64,000 bases of DNA. It comes from Chelatococcus asaccharovorans (GTDB taxonomy: Bacteria; Pseudomonadota; Alphaproteobacteria; Rhizobiales; Beijerinckiaceae). The translations under genes and the position numbers were made by a program. Positions 14,190 to 59,175 of this stretch are shown piece after piece. The DNA lies in NCBI RefSeq assembly GCF_003201475.1, contig NZ_QJJK01000014.1, forward strand, positions 62,001-126,000, written 5' to 3'. Below the pieces are notes generated by a model. The model searched no databases. It was not told where the DNA came from and was given only the letters and a program-made list of their open reading frames with translations. How positions within the stretch are numbered: position 1 is the stretch's first letter; each line of letters starts with the position of its first letter.

Positions 14190-15062
14190 TCAGTCGGCGA
14201 AGCGCGGCACCGGCGCGCCGGCAATCTCGACCGGCATGCTGAAGACGCTGCCGGACAGCGGGTAGCGCGCCTTGACCTCGTCGCTCAGATTGGAGCTCAG
14301 GCTGGTGAAATAGAGCGTCTTCAGGTCCGAGCCGCCGAAGCAGGGCATGGTCGGCCGCGGCACCGGCACTGGTATGCGGGCGAGGAGGCCGCCGTTCGGC
14401 GCGAAGCAGTTCAGGCATCCCGCCGAGACGCCGCAACTCCAGTAGTTGCCGGCGCTGTCGGTGGCGGCGCCGTCCGGCCGTCCTTCCCCATCGCTCAGCG
14501 TGCGGAAGCGCTGGCGATTGGAAATGGTGCCGGTCGCGGCATCGAAGTCCCAGCGGTCGACCCAGGCGGCGCGTGAATCCGAGTGATACATGATGCGCCC
14601 ATCCGGCGACCAGGCGAGGCCGTTCGATGTCGCGAGGCCTTCAATCTTGCGTTCGACCTTCCCATCGGCGGTCACACGGTAGAGCGCGGCGACGGAGGGG
14701 CTGTCCGGCGGGGTCATGCTGCCCACCCAGAAGGCGCCGTCCGGGCCGATCTTGCCGTCATTGAGGCGCGCGGTGCCCGGATTGGTCTCCACCCTGGCCA
14801 GGTGCGACAGCTCTCCCGTGTCGCGATCGAAGATATGGACATCATAGCCGAGAGCCACCACGAGCTTGCCGCTCACCGTCAGCCCGAAGCTGCCGACGGG
14901 ATCGTCGAAACCCCAGCGTTGGCGTTCGCCGCTCTTGATGTCGAGGGCGTAGATCGCCGGCTCCATGATGTCGCACCACAGGAGATGGCCGCGCTCGGCA
15001 TCCCAAACGGCGGATTCGCCCACCTTGTGCGCCATCCGGGCAATGCAGGTGATCTCGGTCAT
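14190..15062 (-). CDS. SMP-30/gluconolactonase/LRE family protein
   Basis: A 290-residue six-bladed beta-propeller lactonase-like enzyme. Metal ligands of the family are visible: Glu in GESAVWD near residue 15, Asn in RLNDGKIGPDG, Asn in TSNGLAWSPDG, and Asp in GRPDGAATDSAGNYW. Members hydrolyse sugar lactones such as gluconolactone or L-arabinono-lactone. The ATG at 15062 is preferred: GGAAGGAAACCAAGGAT lies just upstream and the fold begins here, although the open frame extends to 15230. It is convergent with the ycjF homologue and has no sugar-catabolic neighbours, so the substrate is uncertain. Confidence 0.9.
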   Translation of the reverse strand: MTEITCIARMAHKVGESAVWDAERGHLLWCDIMEPAIYALDIKSGERQRWGFDDPVGSFGLTVSGKLVVALGYDVHIFDRDTGELSHLARVETNPGTARLNDGKIGPDGAFWVGSMTPPDSPSVAALYRVTADGKVERKIEGLATSNGLAWSPDGRIMYHSDSRAAWVDRWDFDAATGTISNRQRFRTLSDGEGRPDGAATDSAGNYWSCGVSAGCLNCFAPNGGLLARIPVPVPRPTMPCFGGSDLKTLYFTSLSSNLSDEVKARYPLSGSVFSMPVEIAGAPVPRFAD

Positions 15063-15481
15063 ATCCTTGGTTTCCTTCCCCGCGAGCCCGTCGCCACAAC
15101 ATGCGCCTTCGGAACCCACATATCCCATCCCGTCTGCCCAAAAGAGAGACGGGATGAGCCTGAGGGTCAAGCCGTGCTGCATGGCTTCCCACATCCGCCT
15201 GCGGCCTTGCCCCTGTCGCCGTGGCAACACAGCGCGGGATAATCGACCGATTGGCCCGTGGCGGATTTGTTAGCGGCCTAAAATCAGTTGACGGTATCGC
15301 CAAGCTCCATGACATACACAGTCAATCCATTCGACCTTGATCGTGGGTCAGAATCACAGGCGAGTTGGCGTCGCGGTTCGGGTGCAGCGCGGGTTGCGAC
15401 CGGATTTCAACATCATGACAGCCGCGAGCCAATGTTTCCTGCCGCGTCTCGTGCCAGGAAGCGGGGGGATGCAGCCGGTCC
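15063..15481. other. Divergent intergenic region, no gene seen
   Basis: These 419 bp separate the lactonase gene (minus) from the acyltransferase gene (plus). No credible ORF, terminator or repeat was found. The region must hold the promoters of both genes. Confidence 0.5.
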
Positions 15482-16852
15482 ATGCTTTTTAATTCTTATG
15501 CGTTCCTGATTGTCTTCCTGCCAGCCGCACTCGCGCTGCATGCCCTGGTCGAGCGTTTCCAGCCCGCAGGGCGCCTGCCGCTGTTGCTTGTCCTCTCGAT
15601 TGTATTCTACGGCTATTGGGATTGGCGCTTCATCCCGCTGATCATCCTGTCGATCGTGATCAACTGGTCGGTTGCGATGCTGTTTGCATCGACGCGCCGT
15701 GAGAGCTTGATCGTCATCGCCATCATCGCCAATCTCTTCGTCCTGGCGATCTTTAAATACGCGGATTTCTTCGCCGGGCTTGCCAATATGCTGCCCGGGG
15801 TCTCCCTCCCGAAGCTGTCGCTGGCGCTGCCGCTCGGAATCTCGTTCTTCACCTTCCACCACGTGATGTATCTGACGGATCTGAAAGCGGGCAGGACAAA
15901 GCCTTTCGATCTCCTGCGCTACGGCCTCTACATCGCCTTTTTCCCGCAGGTTCTTGCCGGCCCACTGGTGCGCTGGAGCGAGATCATGCACCAGTTCGAC
16001 GAACGCCCCTACCAGCGCAGCGATGCGGCCGAGCGCTTCGCACGCGGGATCATGCTGCTGATCGTCGGTCTGGCGAAGAAGGTGCTGATCGGCGACCAAC
16101 TGGCCGCGAACGTCAATCCCGTGTTCGCCGCGGCCGAGCTTGGTGCGGTGACGGTTGTCCAGGCGTGGCAGGGGACGCTGTCCTTCGCCTTCCAGATCTA
16201 TTTCGATTTCTCGGGCTATACGGACATGGCGCTCGGCATCGCGCTGATGTTCGGCATCGTGCTGCCGCAGAACTTCGACAGGCCCTATCGCGCGCTGTCG
16301 CTGCAGGATTTCTGGCGGCGCTGGCACATGACGCTGTCACGCTTCCTGCGCGACTATCTCTATATCGCCCTCGGCGGCAACCGCCACGGCCTGGCGGTGC
16401 AACTCCTTGCCCTGTTCGCGACCATGACGCTGGGTGGCCTCTGGCATGGGGCAGGCTTGACTTTTGTGGCCTGGGGCGTGGCCCACGGCGTCGGCCTCGG
16501 CGCAGGCCTCCTCTGGCGGCGGGCCGGGTGGCCCATGCACCCGGTGATCGGGTGGTTTCTCACCTTCCTGTTCGTCGTGCTCGCCTGGGTTCTGTTCCGT
16601 GCCGAAAGCTTCCAGGGGGCGCTCAACATCTACGAGGGACTCTTCGGACTGTCCCAGCTTGGCACCGGCTTCAAGTGGCGGACGATTGCCTGGGCCGCGG
16701 CTTTCGCCATGATCGGCCCGACCGCCTGGGTGCTCGTGCACAAGCCGCAGCCGCATCCGCTGCTCGCCGTGGCGTTAGCTGTCATATTCATCGTGCTGCT
16801 GTTGAAGATCGGGGACAGTGAGTCCTATGAATTCATCTACTTCCAGTTCTGA
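15482..16852 (+). CDS. MBOAT family O-acyltransferase (AlgI-like)
   Basis: A 456-residue polytopic membrane protein, close to the usual AlgI/DltB size. It starts MLFNSYAFLIVFLP and carries the AlgI-family blocks LPLGISFFTFHHVMYL, FFPQVLAGPLVRW, FDFSGYTDMALG, FWRRWHMTLSRFLRDYLY and GGLWHGAG, whose His322 is the invariant MBOAT histidine. Such proteins move acyl groups from the cytoplasm across the inner membrane to a periplasmic partner that O-acylates a polysaccharide. Two SGNH-like membrane-anchored proteins follow directly (the first overlaps by 26 bp), giving a classic MBOAT-SGNH cassette. The glycan substrate is unknown; no polymer synthesis genes are adjacent. Confidence 0.92.
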   Translation: MLFNSYAFLIVFLPAALALHALVERFQPAGRLPLLLVLSIVFYGYWDWRFIPLIILSIVINWSVAMLFASTRRESLIVIAIIANLFVLAIFKYADFFAGLANMLPGVSLPKLSLALPLGISFFTFHHVMYLTDLKAGRTKPFDLLRYGLYIAFFPQVLAGPLVRWSEIMHQFDERPYQRSDAAERFARGIMLLIVGLAKKVLIGDQLAANVNPVFAAAELGAVTVVQAWQGTLSFAFQIYFDFSGYTDMALGIALMFGIVLPQNFDRPYRALSLQDFWRRWHMTLSRFLRDYLYIALGGNRHGLAVQLLALFATMTLGGLWHGAGLTFVAWGVAHGVGLGAGLLWRRAGWPMHPVIGWFLTFLFVVLAWVLFRAESFQGALNIYEGLFGLSQLGTGFKWRTIAWAAAFAMIGPTAWVLVHKPQPHPLLAVALAVIFIVLLLKIGDSESYEFIYFQF

Positions 16853-17894
16853 GCGAGGCCCGAGCCAGGCCGGCGCCACGGGCTGGAGCGGGCCATGGCG
16901 ACGGTTCGCGGTGATCTTCATGGTGTCCGCGACAGGGGGCCTCGTCGGCGTCCTGGCGCTGTTATTCCTGATCGATCCCTTCGACAGCGGCCGTTCGCCC
17001 ATTTCCCGCGCCCCCGGGATTGCCGCGCCGGATGCCGAGAACGCGACCACCAGTCGCCTCGAGAATGCCAGCCGCGGCCGGGATCCGGCCTTCCAGGCTG
17101 CCATCATTGGCAATTCACGCATTCAGGCGTTGGAGCCCGCGCGGCTCCGGCAGGCGACCGGCATCCCCTTCGTCTCCCTGGTTGTCCAGGCCAGCCGCTC
17201 GCGCGAGCAACTGGCGGTGCTCGACTGGTTCATGCAGTCGCGTACAACGCCGCCGCGGGCGATCATCATCGGGCTGGACATGCCCTGGTGCGATGCGCGC
17301 GTCTCGGCGAGCCCGACAGATCCTTTCCCGTTCTGGCTTTATGATCGATCCCCGGTCGCCTATATCGACGGGCTCTTCCGCTACAGCGTGCTGGCGGACT
17401 ATCTGCCCCGCTATCTCGGCTATCTCATGGGCTTGCGCGACCGCGCGCGCGCCGACGGCTACTGGGACTACGAGCCGGTCTATGCGGCCCTGGGCTATGA
17501 CACGCCGGAGCGGCGGCAGGCGTTGCTGGGACCCGACACGGAGATCGAGATCAATCTCACCGGCCGGTTCGGTGCGGCGGAAGCGCTGGCCGAGCGCCTC
17601 GCCTACGTGCCGCCGGAAACGACCGTCATTCTGGTGCGTCCACCCGTCTATGTCACCGGGCTCGGTGCCCCCGGAAGCGATATGGCAAGAACCGATGCGG
17701 CCTGCCGGGCAGCCCATGAGGCGGTGGCTGCGGGGCGGCCGAATACCTATCTGATCGACTGGCGCGTCGACCGGCCGGAAACCCGCAACCGCGACGCGTT
17801 CATTGACCACAGCCACTACCGCAAGGGGCTGGCCCGTCTGATGGAGGCCGATATCGCCGCGATTCTCAACAAGACGCGGCCACCGGACAGCTGA
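16827..17894 (+). CDS. Membrane-anchored SGNH-like protein, partner of MBOAT (copy 1)
   Basis: About 355 residues: short polar N-terminus, one membrane helix (about residues 26-48, VIFMVSATGGLVGVLALLFL), then a periplasmic domain. It has an SGNH-type layout: nucleophile Ser97 in AIIGNSRIQ, and the C-terminal D-x-x-H pair Asp327/His330 in IDHSHYRKG. It begins inside the MBOAT gene (ATG at 16827 overlaps by 26 bp; a GTG at 16818 is also possible), implying translational coupling. It is similar over its full length to the next gene, including IDPFDSGRSP versus VDPFDTGRSP. By analogy with AlgJ/AlgX, PatB or DltD it probably transfers the acyl group to an extracytoplasmic glycan. Catalytic roles are predicted, not shown. 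Confidence 0.72.
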   Translation: MNSSTSSSERGPSQAGATGWSGPWRRFAVIFMVSATGGLVGVLALLFLIDPFDSGRSPISRAPGIAAPDAENATTSRLENASRGRDPAFQAAIIGNSRIQALEPARLRQATGIPFVSLVVQASRSREQLAVLDWFMQSRTTPPRAIIIGLDMPWCDARVSASPTDPFPFWLYDRSPVAYIDGLFRYSVLADYLPRYLGYLMGLRDRARADGYWDYEPVYAALGYDTPERRQALLGPDTEIEINLTGRFGAAEALAERLAYVPPETTVILVRPPVYVTGLGAPGSDMARTDAACRAAHEAVAAGRPNTYLIDWRVDRPETRNRDAFIDHSHYRKGLARLMEADIAAILNKTRPPDS

Positions 17895-17942
17895 TCCACG
17901 GCTGTGGACGCTGCCCGCCTCATCGTTCAGAAAGTCGATTGA

Positions 17943-19013
17943 ATGCATCTCCCGGCTACAGAAGCGCAAAGAGAATTGGTCAGCCGCCTCGGGCGGCGGC
18001 TCGCCGTGCCGATGCGTGATGTCAACCCGGCAACCTGGTGGCGCTTCACCCTCATTTTCTCGGTGGCGTCATTCGGCTTCCTCGCGGGCCTGATCGCGCT
18101 GATGTTCCTCGTCGATCCCTTCGACACCGGGCGTTCTCCTCTGCGCCTGAAGGAGGGCGTGCCGCAGCAGGGGCCTCGCACGGCCAACGTCAGCCGAGCG
18201 CGGGATCAGGCCTACAACTCGGCGATCATCGGCAACTCGCGGGTACAGATGATCGATCCTGCTGCGCTGACCGAGGAGACCGGCATTCCTTTCGTCGCGC
18301 TGGTGGTGCAGGGCGGATTGCCGAAGGAATTGTTGACGACCTGGGACTGGTTCATGGCCCATCGCCGCGCGCCGCCCAAGGTCATGGTGCTCGGCATCGA
18401 CGGCGTCTGGTGCAGCGACGACCTGTCGAAACAGGTCAATCCCTTCCCCTACTGGCTCTACAGCCGCTCGACCCTTGAGTATCTCCAGGGCCTGTTCCGC
18501 TCGTCGTCGCTCAGCGGGCTGCGCAACTATTTCTCCTATCTCATCGGGCACAGACCTCAGGCACGGCCCGATGGTTTCTGGGATTATGAGAATGTCTACG
18601 GCGTAGGGACGCCCCAACAGCTTGCCCATATGCGTGCGGAACTCGACAAGCCGCAGGGGACCGCGGACGTTAATCTTGGCTCGCATTTTCCCGCAGCGGA
18701 TGCCGTTGCGGCGCGCATTGCCGCGTTGCCTGCCGAGACCGTCGTCATTCTCGTTCGGCCCCCTGTCTACATTACAGGACTGCCCGAGCCGGGCACGGAG
18801 GCTGCCAAGGCGGAAACGGTATGCCGCGATGTCTTCGCCAAGCTCGCCGCGGCACGCCCCAACACCCGGATCATCGATTGGCGTTTCGACCGTCCGGAGA
18901 ATCGGGACCCCGGCAATTTCTTCGACCATACGCATTATCGGAAGACCCTTGCCAGGCGCATCGAGGCCGAAATTGCGGCGGCCGTCCAAGACGAGCGTGC
19001 GGCGAAGCCCTGA
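17943..19013 (+). CDS. Membrane-anchored SGNH-like protein, partner of MBOAT (copy 2)
   Basis: A 356-residue paralogue of the preceding gene, 48 bp downstream. One membrane helix lies at about residues 33-58 (FTLIFSVASFGFLAGLIALMFL), followed by a periplasmic domain with Ser99 in AIIGNSRVQ and Asp328/His331 in FDHTHYRKT. Other shared blocks are TGIPFVALVVQ, DWFM, VVILVRPPVYITGL and RIIDWRFDRPE. Conservation of the putative triad in both copies argues that both are active enzymes and not one active and one decayed copy. Two partners for one MBOAT may mean two acceptor sites or glycans. A single tandem duplication is the simplest origin. Confidence 0.72.
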   Translation: MHLPATEAQRELVSRLGRRLAVPMRDVNPATWWRFTLIFSVASFGFLAGLIALMFLVDPFDTGRSPLRLKEGVPQQGPRTANVSRARDQAYNSAIIGNSRVQMIDPAALTEETGIPFVALVVQGGLPKELLTTWDWFMAHRRAPPKVMVLGIDGVWCSDDLSKQVNPFPYWLYSRSTLEYLQGLFRSSSLSGLRNYFSYLIGHRPQARPDGFWDYENVYGVGTPQQLAHMRAELDKPQGTADVNLGSHFPAADAVAARIAALPAETVVILVRPPVYITGLPEPGTEAAKAETVCRDVFAKLAAARPNTRIIDWRFDRPENRDPGNFFDHTHYRKTLARRIEAEIAAAVQDERAAKP

Positions 19014-19212: not shown

Positions 19213-19632
19213 ATGTCGGATATCGTAATCGACGAGAGCTACCGCCCGTCAGAAGACGAGCCGTTCATGAGCGAGCGTCAGCGAGAATATTTTCGACGCA
19301 AGCTTCTGAATTGGAAAGAGGACATCCTGCGGGAAAGCCGCGAGACGTTGGTCGCGCTGCAAAGCGAGAGCGAGAATCACCCGGATCTGGCCGATCGCGC
19401 TTCATCGGAAACGGACCGGGCCATTGAACTCAGGGCCAGGGACCGCCAGCGCAAGCTGATCGCCAAGATCGAGGCGGCGCTGCTGCGGATCGAGGACGGC
19501 TCCTATGGCTATTGCGAGGAGACCGGCGAGCCGATCTCCTTGAAGCGGCTTGAGGCGCGTCCCATAGCGACGCTTTCGCTGGAGGCGCAAGAGCGGCACG
19601 AACGCAATGAGCGTGTCTATCGCGATGACTGA
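19213..19632 (+). CDS. dksA: RNA polymerase-binding transcription factor DksA, low-cysteine type
   Basis: A 139-residue DksA: a coiled coil (residues about 17-90, with the tip region HPDLADRASSETDRA) and a C-terminal globular part GSYGYCEETGEPISLKRLEARP. DksA enters the RNA polymerase secondary channel and with ppGpp adjusts rRNA and amino-acid promoters. Only one of the four classical zinc ligands is present (YGYC); the positions corresponding to the other three are non-cysteine, as in zinc-independent DksA variants common in alphaproteobacteria. The start at 19213 removes 50 upstream codons of the open frame that do not resemble DksA. A strong terminator follows. Confidence 0.93.
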   Translation: MSDIVIDESYRPSEDEPFMSERQREYFRRKLLNWKEDILRESRETLVALQSESENHPDLADRASSETDRAIELRARDRQRKLIAKIEAALLRIEDGSYGYCEETGEPISLKRLEARPIATLSLEAQERHERNERVYRDD

Positions 19633-19865: not shown

Positions 19866-21410
19866 TCACCGTGTCGGCGGTGTGCGTCCGAGGAGCCGAG
19901 CGAATTCGGCTTCGATGTCGTCGACGGAGAAAGGATCGACATTCGTCTTCTGGGGAGGCGCCGCCTCGGCCCCCGAAGCCTCGTTCTTGGCAGAAGAGCG
20001 CTCGTCAGTTGCGAGATTGCCAGGCGCGGTAGTCTTGCCAGGTGAGGTAGTCTTGCCAGGTGAGGTCGTCTTGGCGGGCGAGGTCGTCTTGGCGGGCGAG
20101 GGCCACTCATTGCTCGGTGGATGCGCGGCCGCCGGGCCCGGCTGTTGGCCGGCAGGTTTGTCGGCAGGAGCGGCTGCGACGGCGGCAGCGTCCGACGGGA
20201 CGGGGCGCTTCGTCGCTGCGGACAACTGATCCCACGGCGCATTCGGTGCCGTGGACCGGGGCCGGACGGCGCCTGCCGGTTGAATAGCGCCTTGGGGCGC
20301 GGCGCCGGCCAGTGGTGAGCCGGACGTGGCGGCCGATCCGGGAGATGTGTTGCCGAATGGGCTATTGCCTGTGGGTGCGTTGGGCCGCGGTGGCGGCGTT
20401 GGTCCAGAAGGTGTGGCAACGGGCGCATTGGGTCGCACGCTGGAAAAGGGCCGTTGCAGGGCCCGTTCGAGTTCGCGTGCCATGGCGGACATCGGTTCGG
20501 ACTCCGAGGCTGCCATCCCGGGGGCGGCGGGATCGGGCCGGACGGGCGCAGGCCCAGCCGGAGAAGGTCTGGCGGGCGGAGGTTGGACAACATTCGGCCG
20601 GGACGCACTTGGCAGGGAAGCACTTGGCAGGGAAGCACTTGGCCGGGAAGCACTTGGCCGGGAAGCACTTGGCCGTGGCTCCGGCAAGGGGGACGTGACG
20701 GGCCGGACGGGTTGAACGGGTTCTGGGGGAGGGGCCGTCGGGGCCGTCGCAGAGCGGGTCGGCGAACCGGGCGGACCGGCCAGATCGCCTATATCGGTGG
20801 AGCCGGGGCGTTCCGCAGACGGCTTTTCCGTGGCGGGAGACATCTCTCGCTTGAAACTGCCCAGCGGATCCCGCGTCTGGGGCGGCGCCACCGCTGCTTT
20901 ACGCCTGTCCGCCGCACCGGCCTGGCGCAGATCCGGCAATGGCGTAAATTGGGCTTCGCTCCGGCGCTGGCCGGCAGGTTCGGGGGCGCTCTCGGCCGTG
21001 GCTTCGCCCGCAGCGCTGCGACCGATCGCAGACAGCGCGACATCGAGGGGAAGCGGGGTGTGCTCGTCCATCGACGACGGCAGGTTGCCGACCGGTGCAA
21101 GCGCGCGCTGGCCGCCGCGCAGGATCCCGCTCTCTACGACGATGTCGGTCGGACCGCCGACCATCACGAGATGCTCGACATTGTCGCGTCGCAACAGGAT
21201 CAACTGCCGCCGCTGATCGAGATCAAAGGTGTCGACCACCGCAAGGCGAGGCTGCCTGGTGCGCGACGAAGCCTGATTCGCGCCTCTGGCGCGGGGCGCG
21301 GTGATGCGACGCAGGACGACAGCAAAGGCGGCCAGGAGCGCGAATATGATGATCAGCGCGATAACATACTGAACCGCCGCTGAAATCTCTAAGCCAAAAA
21401 ACGACTGCAC
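19866..21410 (-). CDS. fliO: FliO/MopB-like flagellar biosynthesis protein with long Pro-rich tail
   Basis: A 514-residue protein if started at the GTG at 21410 (GGGAGA 6 bp upstream); an ATG at 21470 is possible but has no clear ribosome site. A single membrane helix (about residues 9-32, AAVQYVIALIIIFALLAAFAV) is followed by a FliO-type domain with RLAVVDTFDLDQRRQLILLRRD and EHLVMVGGPTDIVVESGI. Residues about 130-490 are low-complexity Pro/Ser/Ala/Thr sequence containing two direct-repeat arrays; the extreme C-terminus (VDPFSVDDIEAEFARLLGR) is ordered-looking. FliO helps build the FliPQR export gate. No other flagellar genes are nearby. A perfect CtrA box lies 81 bp upstream of the start. 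Confidence 0.8.
   Translation of the reverse strand: MQSFFGLEISAAVQYVIALIIIFALLAAFAVVLRRITAPRARGANQASSRTRQPRLAVVDTFDLDQRRQLILLRRDNVEHLVMVGGPTDIVVESGILRGGQRALAPVGNLPSSMDEHTPLPLDVALSAIGRSAAGEATAESAPEPAGQRRSEAQFTPLPDLRQAGAADRRKAAVAPPQTRDPLGSFKREMSPATEKPSAERPGSTDIGDLAGPPGSPTRSATAPTAPPPEPVQPVRPVTSPLPEPRPSASRPSASRPSASLPSASLPSASRPNVVQPPPARPSPAGPAPVRPDPAAPGMAASESEPMSAMARELERALQRPFSSVRPNAPVATPSGPTPPPRPNAPTGNSPFGNTSPGSAATSGSPLAGAAPQGAIQPAGAVRPRSTAPNAPWDQLSAATKRPVPSDAAAVAAAPADKPAGQQPGPAAAHPPSNEWPSPAKTTSPAKTTSPGKTTSPGKTTAPGNLATDERSSAKNEASGAEAAPPQKTNVDPFSVDDIEAEFARLLGRTPPTR
20022..20093. repeat. Four tandem 18-bp repeats in the fliO-like gene
   Basis: Four units of the form AGGTGAGGTNGTCTTGCC run in register and encode a Lys-Thr-Thr-Ser-Pro-(Ala/Gly) type hexapeptide on the minus strand. 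Confidence 0.85.
20605..20679. repeat. Five tandem 15-bp repeats in the fliO-like gene
   Basis: Five near-identical units GCACTTGGCAGGGAA encode a repeated pentapeptide Pro-Ser-Ala-Ser-(Arg/Leu) on the minus strand. Units one and two are identical, three and four are identical to each other, suggesting recent slippage or duplication. Confidence 0.88.
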
Positions 21411-21490
21411 TGCGCGTCTCCCGTTGGTCCCACCACCGGCATACGGGGATACTTCGAGACGTTGCAACACTACGGTTTTTGCAATGCAAG

Positions 21491-56412: not shown

Positions 56413-57747
56413 TCAGGGCATCGCCTCACTCCCGCCGGCGCCGCGCAGGGCCGGCGAGAGCGTCAGGAAGGCGGGCAGCCAGAAGAACAGGAAATGCGCG
56501 TTCACGAAGGTGAAGGCGTCGGACAGGTCTGTCACCATATAGACCAGCGAGAAAACCAGCAGGAACAGGCTGAGGCGCGCAAGATGCCCGGCAGGAGATA
56601 GCGGCTGGCCGGTGCCGCGCGTCGCGTCGATATCGGTCAGCGTCGCGGCCAGGGAATTGACGATCAGCGCGAAGAACGCCAGCGCCGCCGGGATGCCGAA
56701 ATAGAAGGCGGGCCCGAGATAGCCGTTGTGCGGATGGCGGCCGAAGGGGTTCTCGATCTCGGCCGTGGGGCCTGCGCCGAGCCATGGGTGCTCGATGATC
56801 GACCGGGCCGCGAGGCTCCAGATATCCAGGCGATAGGACTTGCGGCAGATGTCGCCGCCCTGGCCGCAGGCCAGATCCTGCAGCGTGCCCTCGTTAAAGA
56901 CGAGGAGGGCGGGGGCGGCAATCGCCGCGAGGATGGCGAGCGCCGCGATGAGCCTGCCCCTGCGGCCGGCGGGCAGTCGCAGAATGATGGCGAGCACCAC
57001 GGCCGCGAGGAAGGCGGCGATGATCGGCCCCCGGCTGAAGGTGAGGATGAAGCCCGCCGCGTTGACCGCGGCCGCCGCCAGCAAGGCGAGCCTGAGGCGC
57101 CCGCGCGCGGTGATCGCCGCCGTGAGGGCGGTCGCAACCCCGAATATGAGGGCACCGGCGCTGAAGATGGCGCCGTTCGCCCGGCCGTAGAGGTGCAGGC
57201 GGACGAAAGTCGGCCATTCGATGACCACCTGCCCCAGGATAGCGATGACGGTCGCCAGGGCGAGGACGAAGGCCGAGACGAGGAGCAGGCGCCGGGGAAA
57301 GTCCGGGTCGCGGCGCAGCGCCGTCAGCACCACCACGCCGAAGGTCAGGATGGCAAGCGCGTTGCCGGCGGCCTGCCAGGCCTTGCCGGGCGAGCCCGCG
57401 CCGCGGAACAACACCCCCACCACCTCCCAGGCGACGATGCCGAGGATCAGGAGCGCCGCCAGCCTGGGGCGGGGATCGCTGAGAAACATGCGCCGCATCG
57501 CGCCGTCGGTCGCGAGAAGAGCGACGCCAGCCGCAATCAACCCGACGAAGACTGCCAGCCAGAAGATGTGGAGCGGCACCAGGGTGATGGCGACGATGGT
57601 CGCGTAGACGAGGGTCGAGGCGAAGCGATCGCGATGAAGGGCATCGCTTCCGGCGAGCCGGGCCTTGGTGAGCCATGGAGCCCCGGTGAGCCATTTGGCC
57701 GACGACGGTGAAGGCGACGACGGTGAAGACGACGTTGGTGAAGGCAT
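56413..57747 (-). CDS. O-antigen ligase/polymerase family membrane protein
   Basis: A 444-residue protein with about ten to twelve predicted membrane helices and a large periplasmic loop holding the family signature (LGAGPTAEIENPFGRHPHNGYLGPAFYFGIP; the HPHNGYL block is diagnostic of Wzy_C/O-antigen ligase). Two Cys in DLACGQGGDICRKSYR may form a disulfide. Such proteins attach polysaccharide to lipid A core or polymerise glycan repeats. The ATG at 57747 has GAGGAG 4-8 bp upstream. The N-terminal tail is Ser/Pro-rich and carries a 15-bp direct repeat. It is divergent from a GT61 gene, suggesting a small polysaccharide locus. Confidence 0.85.
   Translation of the reverse strand: MPSPTSSSPSSPSPSSAKWLTGAPWLTKARLAGSDALHRDRFASTLVYATIVAITLVPLHIFWLAVFVGLIAAGVALLATDGAMRRMFLSDPRPRLAALLILGIVAWEVVGVLFRGAGSPGKAWQAAGNALAILTFGVVVLTALRRDPDFPRRLLLVSAFVLALATVIAILGQVVIEWPTFVRLHLYGRANGAIFSAGALIFGVATALTAAITARGRLRLALLAAAAVNAAGFILTFSRGPIIAAFLAAVVLAIILRLPAGRRGRLIAALAILAAIAAPALLVFNEGTLQDLACGQGGDICRKSYRLDIWSLAARSIIEHPWLGAGPTAEIENPFGRHPHNGYLGPAFYFGIPAALAFFALIVNSLAATLTDIDATRGTGQPLSPAGHLARLSLFLLVFSLVYMVTDLSDAFTFVNAHFLFFWLPAFLTLSPALRGAGGSEAMP
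57701..57745. repeat. Three tandem 15-bp repeats at the start of the O-antigen ligase-like gene
   Basis: Units GACGACGGTGAAGGC, GACGACGGTGAAGAC and GACGTTGGTGAAGGC follow each other and encode the Ser/Pro-rich tail on the minus strand. Confidence 0.82.
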
Positions 57748-57975
57748 GGGACTCCTCGGGTTCGTCACATGGCGACGGGACAACGGTCAACCCATCGTTC
57801 AACCGCAGGCAGCTATGGCAATGCCGGAGGGCGCGGTCAACGTGGCATCACGCGCCGGGACCGGGGACCCGTGCACGCCGCGCCTTGCTGGTTGTCTCAC
57901 GCTTTCCTATAAGGACGCCCGCGCGCATCCATGCTGGCGATATCGCGCGGACCATGAAGATCAGGAGCCTGCTCG

Positions 57976-59175
57976 ATGGGGCGTCGCCGTTCCCGCCTCG
58001 CCCTTGCGATGGATCTCAAGCCGAAGGCCTTTGCGCTGTTCGAACGCCTGTCGCGCGTCACGCGCCGTTCGCCGCTGCATCTCGGCTTCTTCCCTGACAT
58101 CCGGCCCTATCCCGACCGCTTTGTCCAAGTCTACCAGAACGACCGCTATCGCATGCGGCTGGCGTCGCCGCCTTATGCGGACGTTCTGCCCGCGCTGGCG
58201 ATCGACAACTGGGATGTGAAGCTCCCCAGCTTTGCCGAGGCCGATGAGACGATCATCCGGCGGTTCGTCGGCATTTTCCAGGACGCAATCGTCCCGGGCC
58301 ATACGCTGACGCCGGTCGATGCGGAGAGCCTCGCGCAGCTCGCGCTGGATGAAAGCCGGCTCGCCAACTGGAATTTCGCCTATCCCGCGCCGATCCTCTT
58401 CAAGCGCCGCGTGGCGGAGGGGCTCGGCATCGTGTTGCCGCCGTATCCGCATTACGGCCATCTCCTGCTCGACGTGCTGATGCCGATCGCCCATGCGCTG
58501 CGGTTGGGGGCGGGCGACGGGCGCAAGCTCACCATCATCACCAAGGCGCACCGCATTCCGCTCATCAATGCCTTCGTGAGCGGTCTCAGGAAGCTCGGCC
58601 ATACCGTCGAGGTGATGGAACTGACGCCCTTCGACCATGCGGTGGTGCCGGAACTCCTGCTCGCGCGTTCGCTCTGCCGCAATGTCGAGCGGGCCTACGG
58701 GCTGCACGAATCGCTGCCCTATCTCCGGTCGATCTTCGAGGCCGCCTATGGGCCGGTTTCGGTGCCGCCGTCGCCGCTCGTCTATTTCTCGCGCGGGCAT
58801 TCGCGACTGCGGCGCCTCCTCAATGAGGACGAGCTTCGCCATGGGCTGATCGAACGGGGGTTTACGGTCTTCGAGGCTGGCTGGGGCAACCACCCGCAGC
58901 AGATCGCCACCTTCACACAGGCCTCGGTGCTGGTGGGTGTGCACGGCGCCGGCCTTGCCAATGTCGCCTGGATGCAGCCGGGCGCGCATCTCGTCGAGAT
59001 CTTCCCGTCGACCTTCCGCAAGACCACAGGCCTCCATTGGGCGGCCGAGCACGATTTGGGCTACGATTTCTTCCTGGCTTCCCCTGAAGGGGCGATGCAG
59101 AGTTTCAGCATCGACTGTGCCGCCTTTTTCGCGAGGCTCGATGCCATCGTGACGCGATCGCACCTACGACCTTAG
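57976..59175 (+). CDS. Glycosyltransferase family 61 (DUF563) protein
   Basis: A 399-residue cytoplasmic glycosyltransferase. The C-terminal GT61 block [26 protein letters not shown] is present, with [22 protein letters not shown] and [13 protein letters not shown] upstream as sugar-nucleotide-binding regions. GT61 enzymes add xylose, arabinose or GlcNAc to glycans and are common in alphaproteobacterial polysaccharide loci. No membrane helix is seen. It is divergent from the O-antigen ligase-like gene with about 229 bp between starts, so the two may share regulation. Confidence 0.87.

Follow-up and report, generated by a model that had tools for sequence, protein, structure and literature searches.

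We analysed a 64,000-nucleotide stretch of Chelatococcus asaccharovorans DNA (contig NZ_QJJK01000014.1; the whole stretch is called the window here, and the genome containing it is 7.25 Mb), focusing on three plus-strand genes within positions 15482-19013 that encode one MBOAT O-acyltransferase and two tandem SGNH-like partners, A and B (Table 1). An earlier note on this DNA had described one MBOAT gene followed by two tandem single-span paralogues, which was borne out by the open reading frames (ORFs), the Pfam MBOAT match, an A/B identity of 48% over 332 columns (E 3e-104) and one hydrophobic span in each partner (residues 29-56 in A and 33-62 in B). The catalytic residues it proposed for B, Ser99 and Asp328-His331, are found as claimed, while those for A (Ser97, Asp327-His330) hold when counted from an in-frame ATG at 16827, which gives 355 amino acids (aa), but not from the GTG start at 16818, from which they become Ser100, Asp330 and His333. 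Since the reading frame of A opens inside the 3′ end of the MBOAT gene, the codons of the MBOAT acyl-shuttle motif are read a second time, in another frame, within the Ser/Thr-rich start of A. Sequence comparison and fold models argue strongly that the trio specifies a Gram-negative MBOAT-SGNH envelope acyltransferase with a tandem-duplicated SGNH partner.

Table 1. Genes and motifs of the MBOAT-SGNH locus, in window coordinates
Feature	Position	Strand	Basis
MBOAT O-acyltransferase, 456 aa, conserved His282 and His322, ends in FIYFQF (Tyr453)	15482..16852	+	Pfam MBOAT; PDB DltB; C-terminal motif; conserved columns
FIYFQF shuttle-motif codons; the other frame is the Ser/Thr-rich N-terminus of partner A	16832..16849	+	Sequence, translations, gene overlap
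SGNH-like partner A, 358 aa, one N-terminal span, GNS block I Ser100, D330-x-x-H333	16818..17894	+	Motifs, fold model
SGNH-like partner B, 356 aa, one N-terminal span, GNS block I Ser99, D328-x-x-H331	17943..19013	+	Motifs, fold model
DksA-like gene, frequent downstream neighbour of the MBOAT-SGNH unit	19213..19632	+	Pfam match of genus homologue; start inferred from translation

The MBOAT protein and its two partners

The MBOAT matched the Pfam MBOAT family at E 1.8e-31 (110 bits, cut-off 27), and its nearest PDB chains were those of DltB (E 5e-28), as was its nearest NCBIfam model, at 167 bits under a cut-off of 375. Its last six residues, 451-456, read FIYFQF and fit the FXYXXF acyl-shuttle hexapeptide. 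The C-terminus followed the pattern F-[I/L/V]-YF-[Q/R/N]-F in all 53 MBOATs scoring above 200 bits against this one in the fetched stretches, a set that includes a repeat of the window (L059) and the other two MBOATs of the same genome (L060 and L061). In an alignment of 47 MBOATs, at least 98% keep F451, Y453, F454 and F456 as well as H282 and H322. Two hydrophobic segments, 401-419 and 422-448, precede the motif, in line with the two extra helices described for MBOATs other than DltB (PMC12148441). In the same source, PatA auto-acetylates the invariant Tyr of its C-terminal hexapeptide, an acetyl-tyrosine peptide can serve PatB as donor, and DltX carries an FXYXXF motif of the same kind as that of PatA.

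This genome has two other MBOAT loci. At L061:8938-13401 on contig C1, an AlgI/J/X-like locus beside a DNA polymerase I gene, the MBOAT is accompanied by two ALGX-domain proteins around a small protein. The third MBOAT, at L060:9425-12413 on contig C4, ends in FLYFNF and is followed by a 517-residue ORF without a Pfam match at E 0.01.

For the partners, family searches were weak. Lipase_GDSL_2 was touched by 4 of 23 aligned family members (best E 0.025), and the family profile gave weak matches in the PDB, the best of which (E 0.092, over the D-x-x-H region) was the acetyltransferase chain 6wn9, listed as the C-terminal domain of OatA from S. aureus. Pfam ALGX matched neither the partners nor the other aligned family members, and Pfam DltD (PF04914) matched neither partner. 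G97, S99, D153, C157, C294, D328 and H331 (B numbering), among others, were invariant in all 23 aligned members, window proteins included, and the block I Gly and Ser and the Asp and His of D-x-x-H were also invariant in 30 of 30 single-partner loci and all eight copies from the window's genus. Because they are invariant across aligned relatives, the catalytic-motif residues are not a product of chance. The pair C157/C294 may form a periplasmic disulphide.

Fold models, built from three-sequence alignments, reached a mean pLDDT of 66.3 for B and 64.0 for A. The best match of the B model was an SGNH hydrolase (Z 12.7, rmsd 3.9, 167 aligned residues), and that of the A model was an SGNH-type chain (Z 13.4, rmsd 4.2, 190 aligned residues). 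Chains of PatB (Z 11.9-12.7) and OatA scored no more than about 1 Z unit below the best match, and DltD chains appeared in the Foldseek list for B; AlgJ, AlgX and WssI chains were absent among the 50 matches listed per partner fold search, which does not exclude them. As no Foldseek E value for B reached 0.001, the SGNH assignment depends on Z-scores and motifs together. The structure prediction proposed earlier as a check thus returned SGNH folds for both paralogues, with catalytic residues kept and in models of moderate confidence. PatB itself is described as having two wing-like beta-hairpins at its active-site face (PMC12148441).

Distribution and duplication of the partner

Of 60 genomes searched at E 0.001, 18 had a relative of partner B; at E 1e-20, so did 137 of 397 genomes from the same family, the 397 being an even sample of a larger group. 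Both counts include the window's genome. A collection of genome contigs yielded one relative (L034); viral contigs held no relative, and plasmids gave no match to partner B. We examined 66 stretches, namely 64 from other genomes (24 + 40), L034 and the window, which represent the strongest and selected matches and not all of them. Fifty of these have both an MBOAT call and a partner call, 45 with a single partner and five with two (the window, L035, L036, L037 and L087). The other 16 lack an MBOAT call; in two of them, L107 and L108, the simple gene finder used for these calls also missed the SGNH relative itself. The partner precedes the MBOAT in three loci (L043, L120 and L121). A gene overlap of 26-38 nt was called in 27 of the 50 loci and a longer one, of 44-239 nt, in 10 more, the length depending on the start picked by the gene finder; the remaining 13 show a 1-nt overlap, a short gap, an upstream partner or, in L039, an interrupted partner.

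Given that 45 of the 50 linked loci have one partner, and that the five with two are the four from the window's genus plus one from a different genus, the sequence comparisons identify the pair as a lineage-specific duplication inside a standard MBOAT-SGNH system. These loci lend no support to the idea of a new type of three-gene system that is widely conserved. The pair was present in all four genomes of the window's genus examined, and in the tree A and B formed separate clades with 100% support, each containing all four species. The two clades joined with 94/90 support, which is good but not decisive. Moreover, at three positions where 29 of 30 single-partner loci (30 of the 45 were used for this comparison) have Tyr, Pro and Arg, A and B alike carry Phe, Gln and Tyr. 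The duplication is therefore older than the species of the genus and probably took place on or near its stem. In the literature searched, outside which most subscription journals lay, we found no description of such a duplicated pair.

The pair in L087 has another history. Its copies group at 100/100 with the single partner in L044, apart from A and B, and therefore represent a second, independent duplication. L044 comes from G026, a genome of the same genus as G088, the source of L087, and pairs at 100/100 with one L087 copy, a placement that points to loss of the other copy in G026. A third genome of that genus, G117, has one partner (L114).

A few relatives deserve separate mention. At L039:9950-10978 the partner gene carries one in-frame stop beside an intact MBOAT frame and is either a pseudogene or a sequencing error. 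Two adjacent SGNH relatives lie at L048:9220-11380, and no MBOAT was called in that 20-kb stretch. In L049, L053, L054 and L057, SGNH relatives for which no MBOAT was called nearby adjoin a family, named by eye, that looks like queuine tRNA-ribosyltransferase.

Both copies are under purifying selection. Pairwise dN/dS among the four species was 0.10-0.16 for A and 0.07-0.12 for B. Other genes of the locus gave 0.02-0.07 (MBOAT), 0-0.04 (dksA-like), 0.02-0.06 (YcjX-like) and 0.11-0.22 (the divergent upstream gene at 14190-15230), with dS of up to 1.2, at which synonymous sites are partly saturated. All eight genus copies retain the equivalents of G-N-S, D153, C157, C294, D328 and H331. Compared with the residues that most single-partner loci have, A is changed at four prolines and at a number of sites around block I, and B is changed at others; the stems measure 0.33 changes per column for A and 0.70 for B. 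These stem lengths and position changes are compatible with diverged function or regulation and are not proof of either.

Proposed mechanism and its alternatives

In the mechanism that we favour, the MBOAT would take an acyl group, probably acetyl, from a cytoplasmic acyl-CoA and load it onto Tyr453 of its own C-terminal FIYFQF peptide. This peptide would then deliver the group to the active-site Ser of a membrane-tethered periplasmic SGNH protein, which would move it to a hydroxyl of an envelope glycan; both copies are presumed to carry out this transfer and may divide acceptor, position or condition between them. The MBOAT-SGNH acylation reading had already been put forward in the earlier note; it is supported by the SGNH models of the partners and their kept residues, and strengthened by the MBOAT ending in the acyl-shuttle motif. 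That A and B have divided their roles is only about as probable as the rival accounts combined. The earlier note saw in the pair a possible sign of two acceptors or of a heterodimeric transferase.

Several observations weigh against this reading. For neither partner did Pfam or NCBIfam give a hit at E up to 1, and searching PDB sequences with the partners found no PatB, AlgJ, AlgX or DltD chain. Foldseek gave no match for B at E <=0.001, much of residues 164-244 lies below 50 pLDDT in the partner models, and models of moderate pLDDT from three sequences, sharing a fold, do not by themselves show a function. No MBOAT was called near the relative in 16 of the 66 stretches, and the immediate neighbours that were examined showed no genes for glycan synthesis. 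The partial saturation of synonymous sites and the less than decisive support for the A+B join, given above, count on the same side, and the reading as a whole is built from sequence and models.

Among the alternatives, redundancy or dosage, in which both copies do the same job within the same MBOAT-SGNH core and functions are not split, is a doubtful but possible account. It agrees with the similar purifying selection on A and B and with their identical motifs. Against it, the two are just 48% identical with long separate stems, and the survival of both copies in all four genus genomes is poorly predicted by pure redundancy.

A relay is unlikely. Here one copy, on the same core, would receive the acyl group from the MBOAT and hand it to the other, which would acylate the polymer, as has been proposed for AlgJ and AlgX of alginate, where one MBOAT works with two active SGNH proteins and active-site variants of either abolish acetylation (PMC4148444). 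Both A and B keep their catalytic residues, but a single partner serves in 45 of the 50 linked loci, PatB is reported to use the acetyl-tyrosine peptide directly (PMC12148441), and A and B are paralogues of one family, not members of two old ones.

We regard it as quite improbable that one copy, the core again being shared, has become an esterase that strips acyl groups as Ape1 does beside PatA and PatB. PatA, PatB and Ape1 do form a three-gene operon with two SGNH proteins (PMC12148441), and A and B differ at several positions conserved in most single-partner loci; yet these positions lie outside the Ser and D-x-x-H motifs, and neither copy has lost the invariant residues or the membrane anchor. 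It is very improbable that the partners are ordinary esterases, related to the MBOAT by position alone, as plain SGNH hydrolases among the closest structural matches and the stretches lacking an MBOAT call might suggest, because an MBOAT adjoins a partner in 50 loci, 27 of them with the 26-38 nt overlap, and the published shuttle motif passes its acyl group to an SGNH protein.

Some genomes hold more SGNH relatives than MBOAT genes. G008, G020, G024, G026 and G062 each have a single MBOAT gene (E 0.001) and two SGNH relatives, one of them unlinked; the linked copy of G020 contains an internal stop. In G088 there are three SGNH relatives to one MBOAT, and at least one of the three lies far from it. 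Because these six single-MBOAT genomes carry two or three SGNH relatives with at least one unlinked, one MBOAT may serve several transferases. In G017, one MBOAT and one SGNH relative are on different contigs. The unlinked copies of G008, G014, G017, G020, G024 and G026 fell in one 100/100 clade with the MBOAT-linked partners of G041, G044 and G059, and those of G013 fell outside it. We tentatively suggest that an MBOAT with a Tyr shuttle could act as a hub loading exchangeable SGNH transferases, each with its own acceptor and some encoded far away, of which the tandem pair would be the linked form.

Related systems and genomic neighbourhood

The mechanism is likely, by analogy, to resemble that of PatA-PatB, in which an MBOAT with a C-terminal FXYXXF also works with a separate SGNH partner having Ser first and D-x-x-H last (PMC12148441). 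PatB chains were among the structural matches of both partners, but neither partner is recognised as PatB by sequence or family model, and, unlike in PatA-PatB-Ape1, the third gene here is a paralogue 48% identical to the second: the partner itself is duplicated. The alginate system AlgI/AlgJ/AlgX resembles the locus in joining one MBOAT to two SGNH proteins with catalytic residues kept. AlgJ is described as circularly permuted, with D190 and H192 followed by S288 (PMC4148444), whereas here Ser precedes D-x-x-H and the ALGX family is not matched; no alginate-type cluster was seen in the neighbours examined, the genome not having been searched for alginate genes. Similarly, cellulose acetylation by WssH/WssI/WssF is described with one MBOAT and two SGNH proteins (PMC10302187), but those partners are of AlgJ/AlgX type and belong to a cellulose synthase operon, none of which was found among the neighbours examined here, again without a genome-wide search. 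The earlier premise that known systems usually have distinct partners is only partly right: the alginate and cellulose systems have two SGNH proteins per MBOAT, as does PatA-PatB-Ape1. A patB1 and a patB2 are mentioned in a secondary-wall system (PMC7759979).

The MBOAT is closest to DltB, below the NCBIfam cut-off and in the PDB, and DltD was among the Foldseek matches. DltD is a membrane-anchored, Ser-first partner, like A and B. Unlike in the DltB/DltD system, which includes DltX and DltC, the shuttle motif is on the MBOAT itself and not on DltX (PMC12148441), and the genome gave no DltD family match at E 0.001.

The finding is sound and mostly ordinary. What it adds to MBOAT-SGNH systems is a partner family without a Pfam or NCBIfam model, a duplication specific to one lineage, and an MBOAT that may be shared. 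Relatives matched except for having one or two partners offer a natural experiment on why some systems have two SGNH proteins, a question stated for alginate (PMC4148444). If it is true that one MBOAT loads several transferases, pathways could gain acceptors simply by partner duplication.

The DksA-like gene downstream, whose genus homologue at L035:12006-12515 matches Pfam DksA_N and zf-dskA_traR, is a conserved neighbour and is not thought to be part of the acylation system. Of 49 linked stretches, 29 hold a homologue of it and 14 a homologue of one of the flagellar families that Pfam names (FlgA, FlgH, FlgF/G, FlgI or FlgJ), not counting nine further stretches with only a FliO-like family that has no Pfam match. 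As a control we turned to the 15 searched genomes that lack a partner B match and took the region around dksA from 14 of them, omitting G018, which was at a contig end. These 14 regions contained neither an MBOAT nor an SGNH relative, and dksA was called in 13. Flagellar genes of the families named above lay near dksA in five (L128, L132, L136, L137 and L139). A match to the kinase that neighbours the trio in the window, whether or not accompanied by the FliO-like family, lay there in eight (L127, L129, L130, L131, L132, L135, L138 and L140); L132 has both the flagellar genes and the kinase, and L140 also has YcjX and YcjF homologues. The neighbourhood is an old synteny that exists without the MBOAT-SGNH unit and is therefore uninformative on function. 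A flagellar role drawn from context was rejected, since the dksA/flagellar/kinase/YcjX setting occurs without the unit.

No glycan target was inferred from context, where Pfam flank scans covered L040, L058 and representatives of ten neighbour families. L040 and L058 sit among glycosyltransferase and related sugar genes. In the window, the O-antigen-ligase-like (Wzy_C) and GT61 genes noted earlier at about 40 kb from the trio are real; they lie at 56413-57783 and 57976-59175 in opposite directions, and their products are a possible candidate source of the acceptor glycan. The minus-strand ORF at 19866-21470 is hydrophobic towards its N-terminus and rich in proline in the remainder; it has no Pfam match, and its homologues lie near dksA in related genomes.

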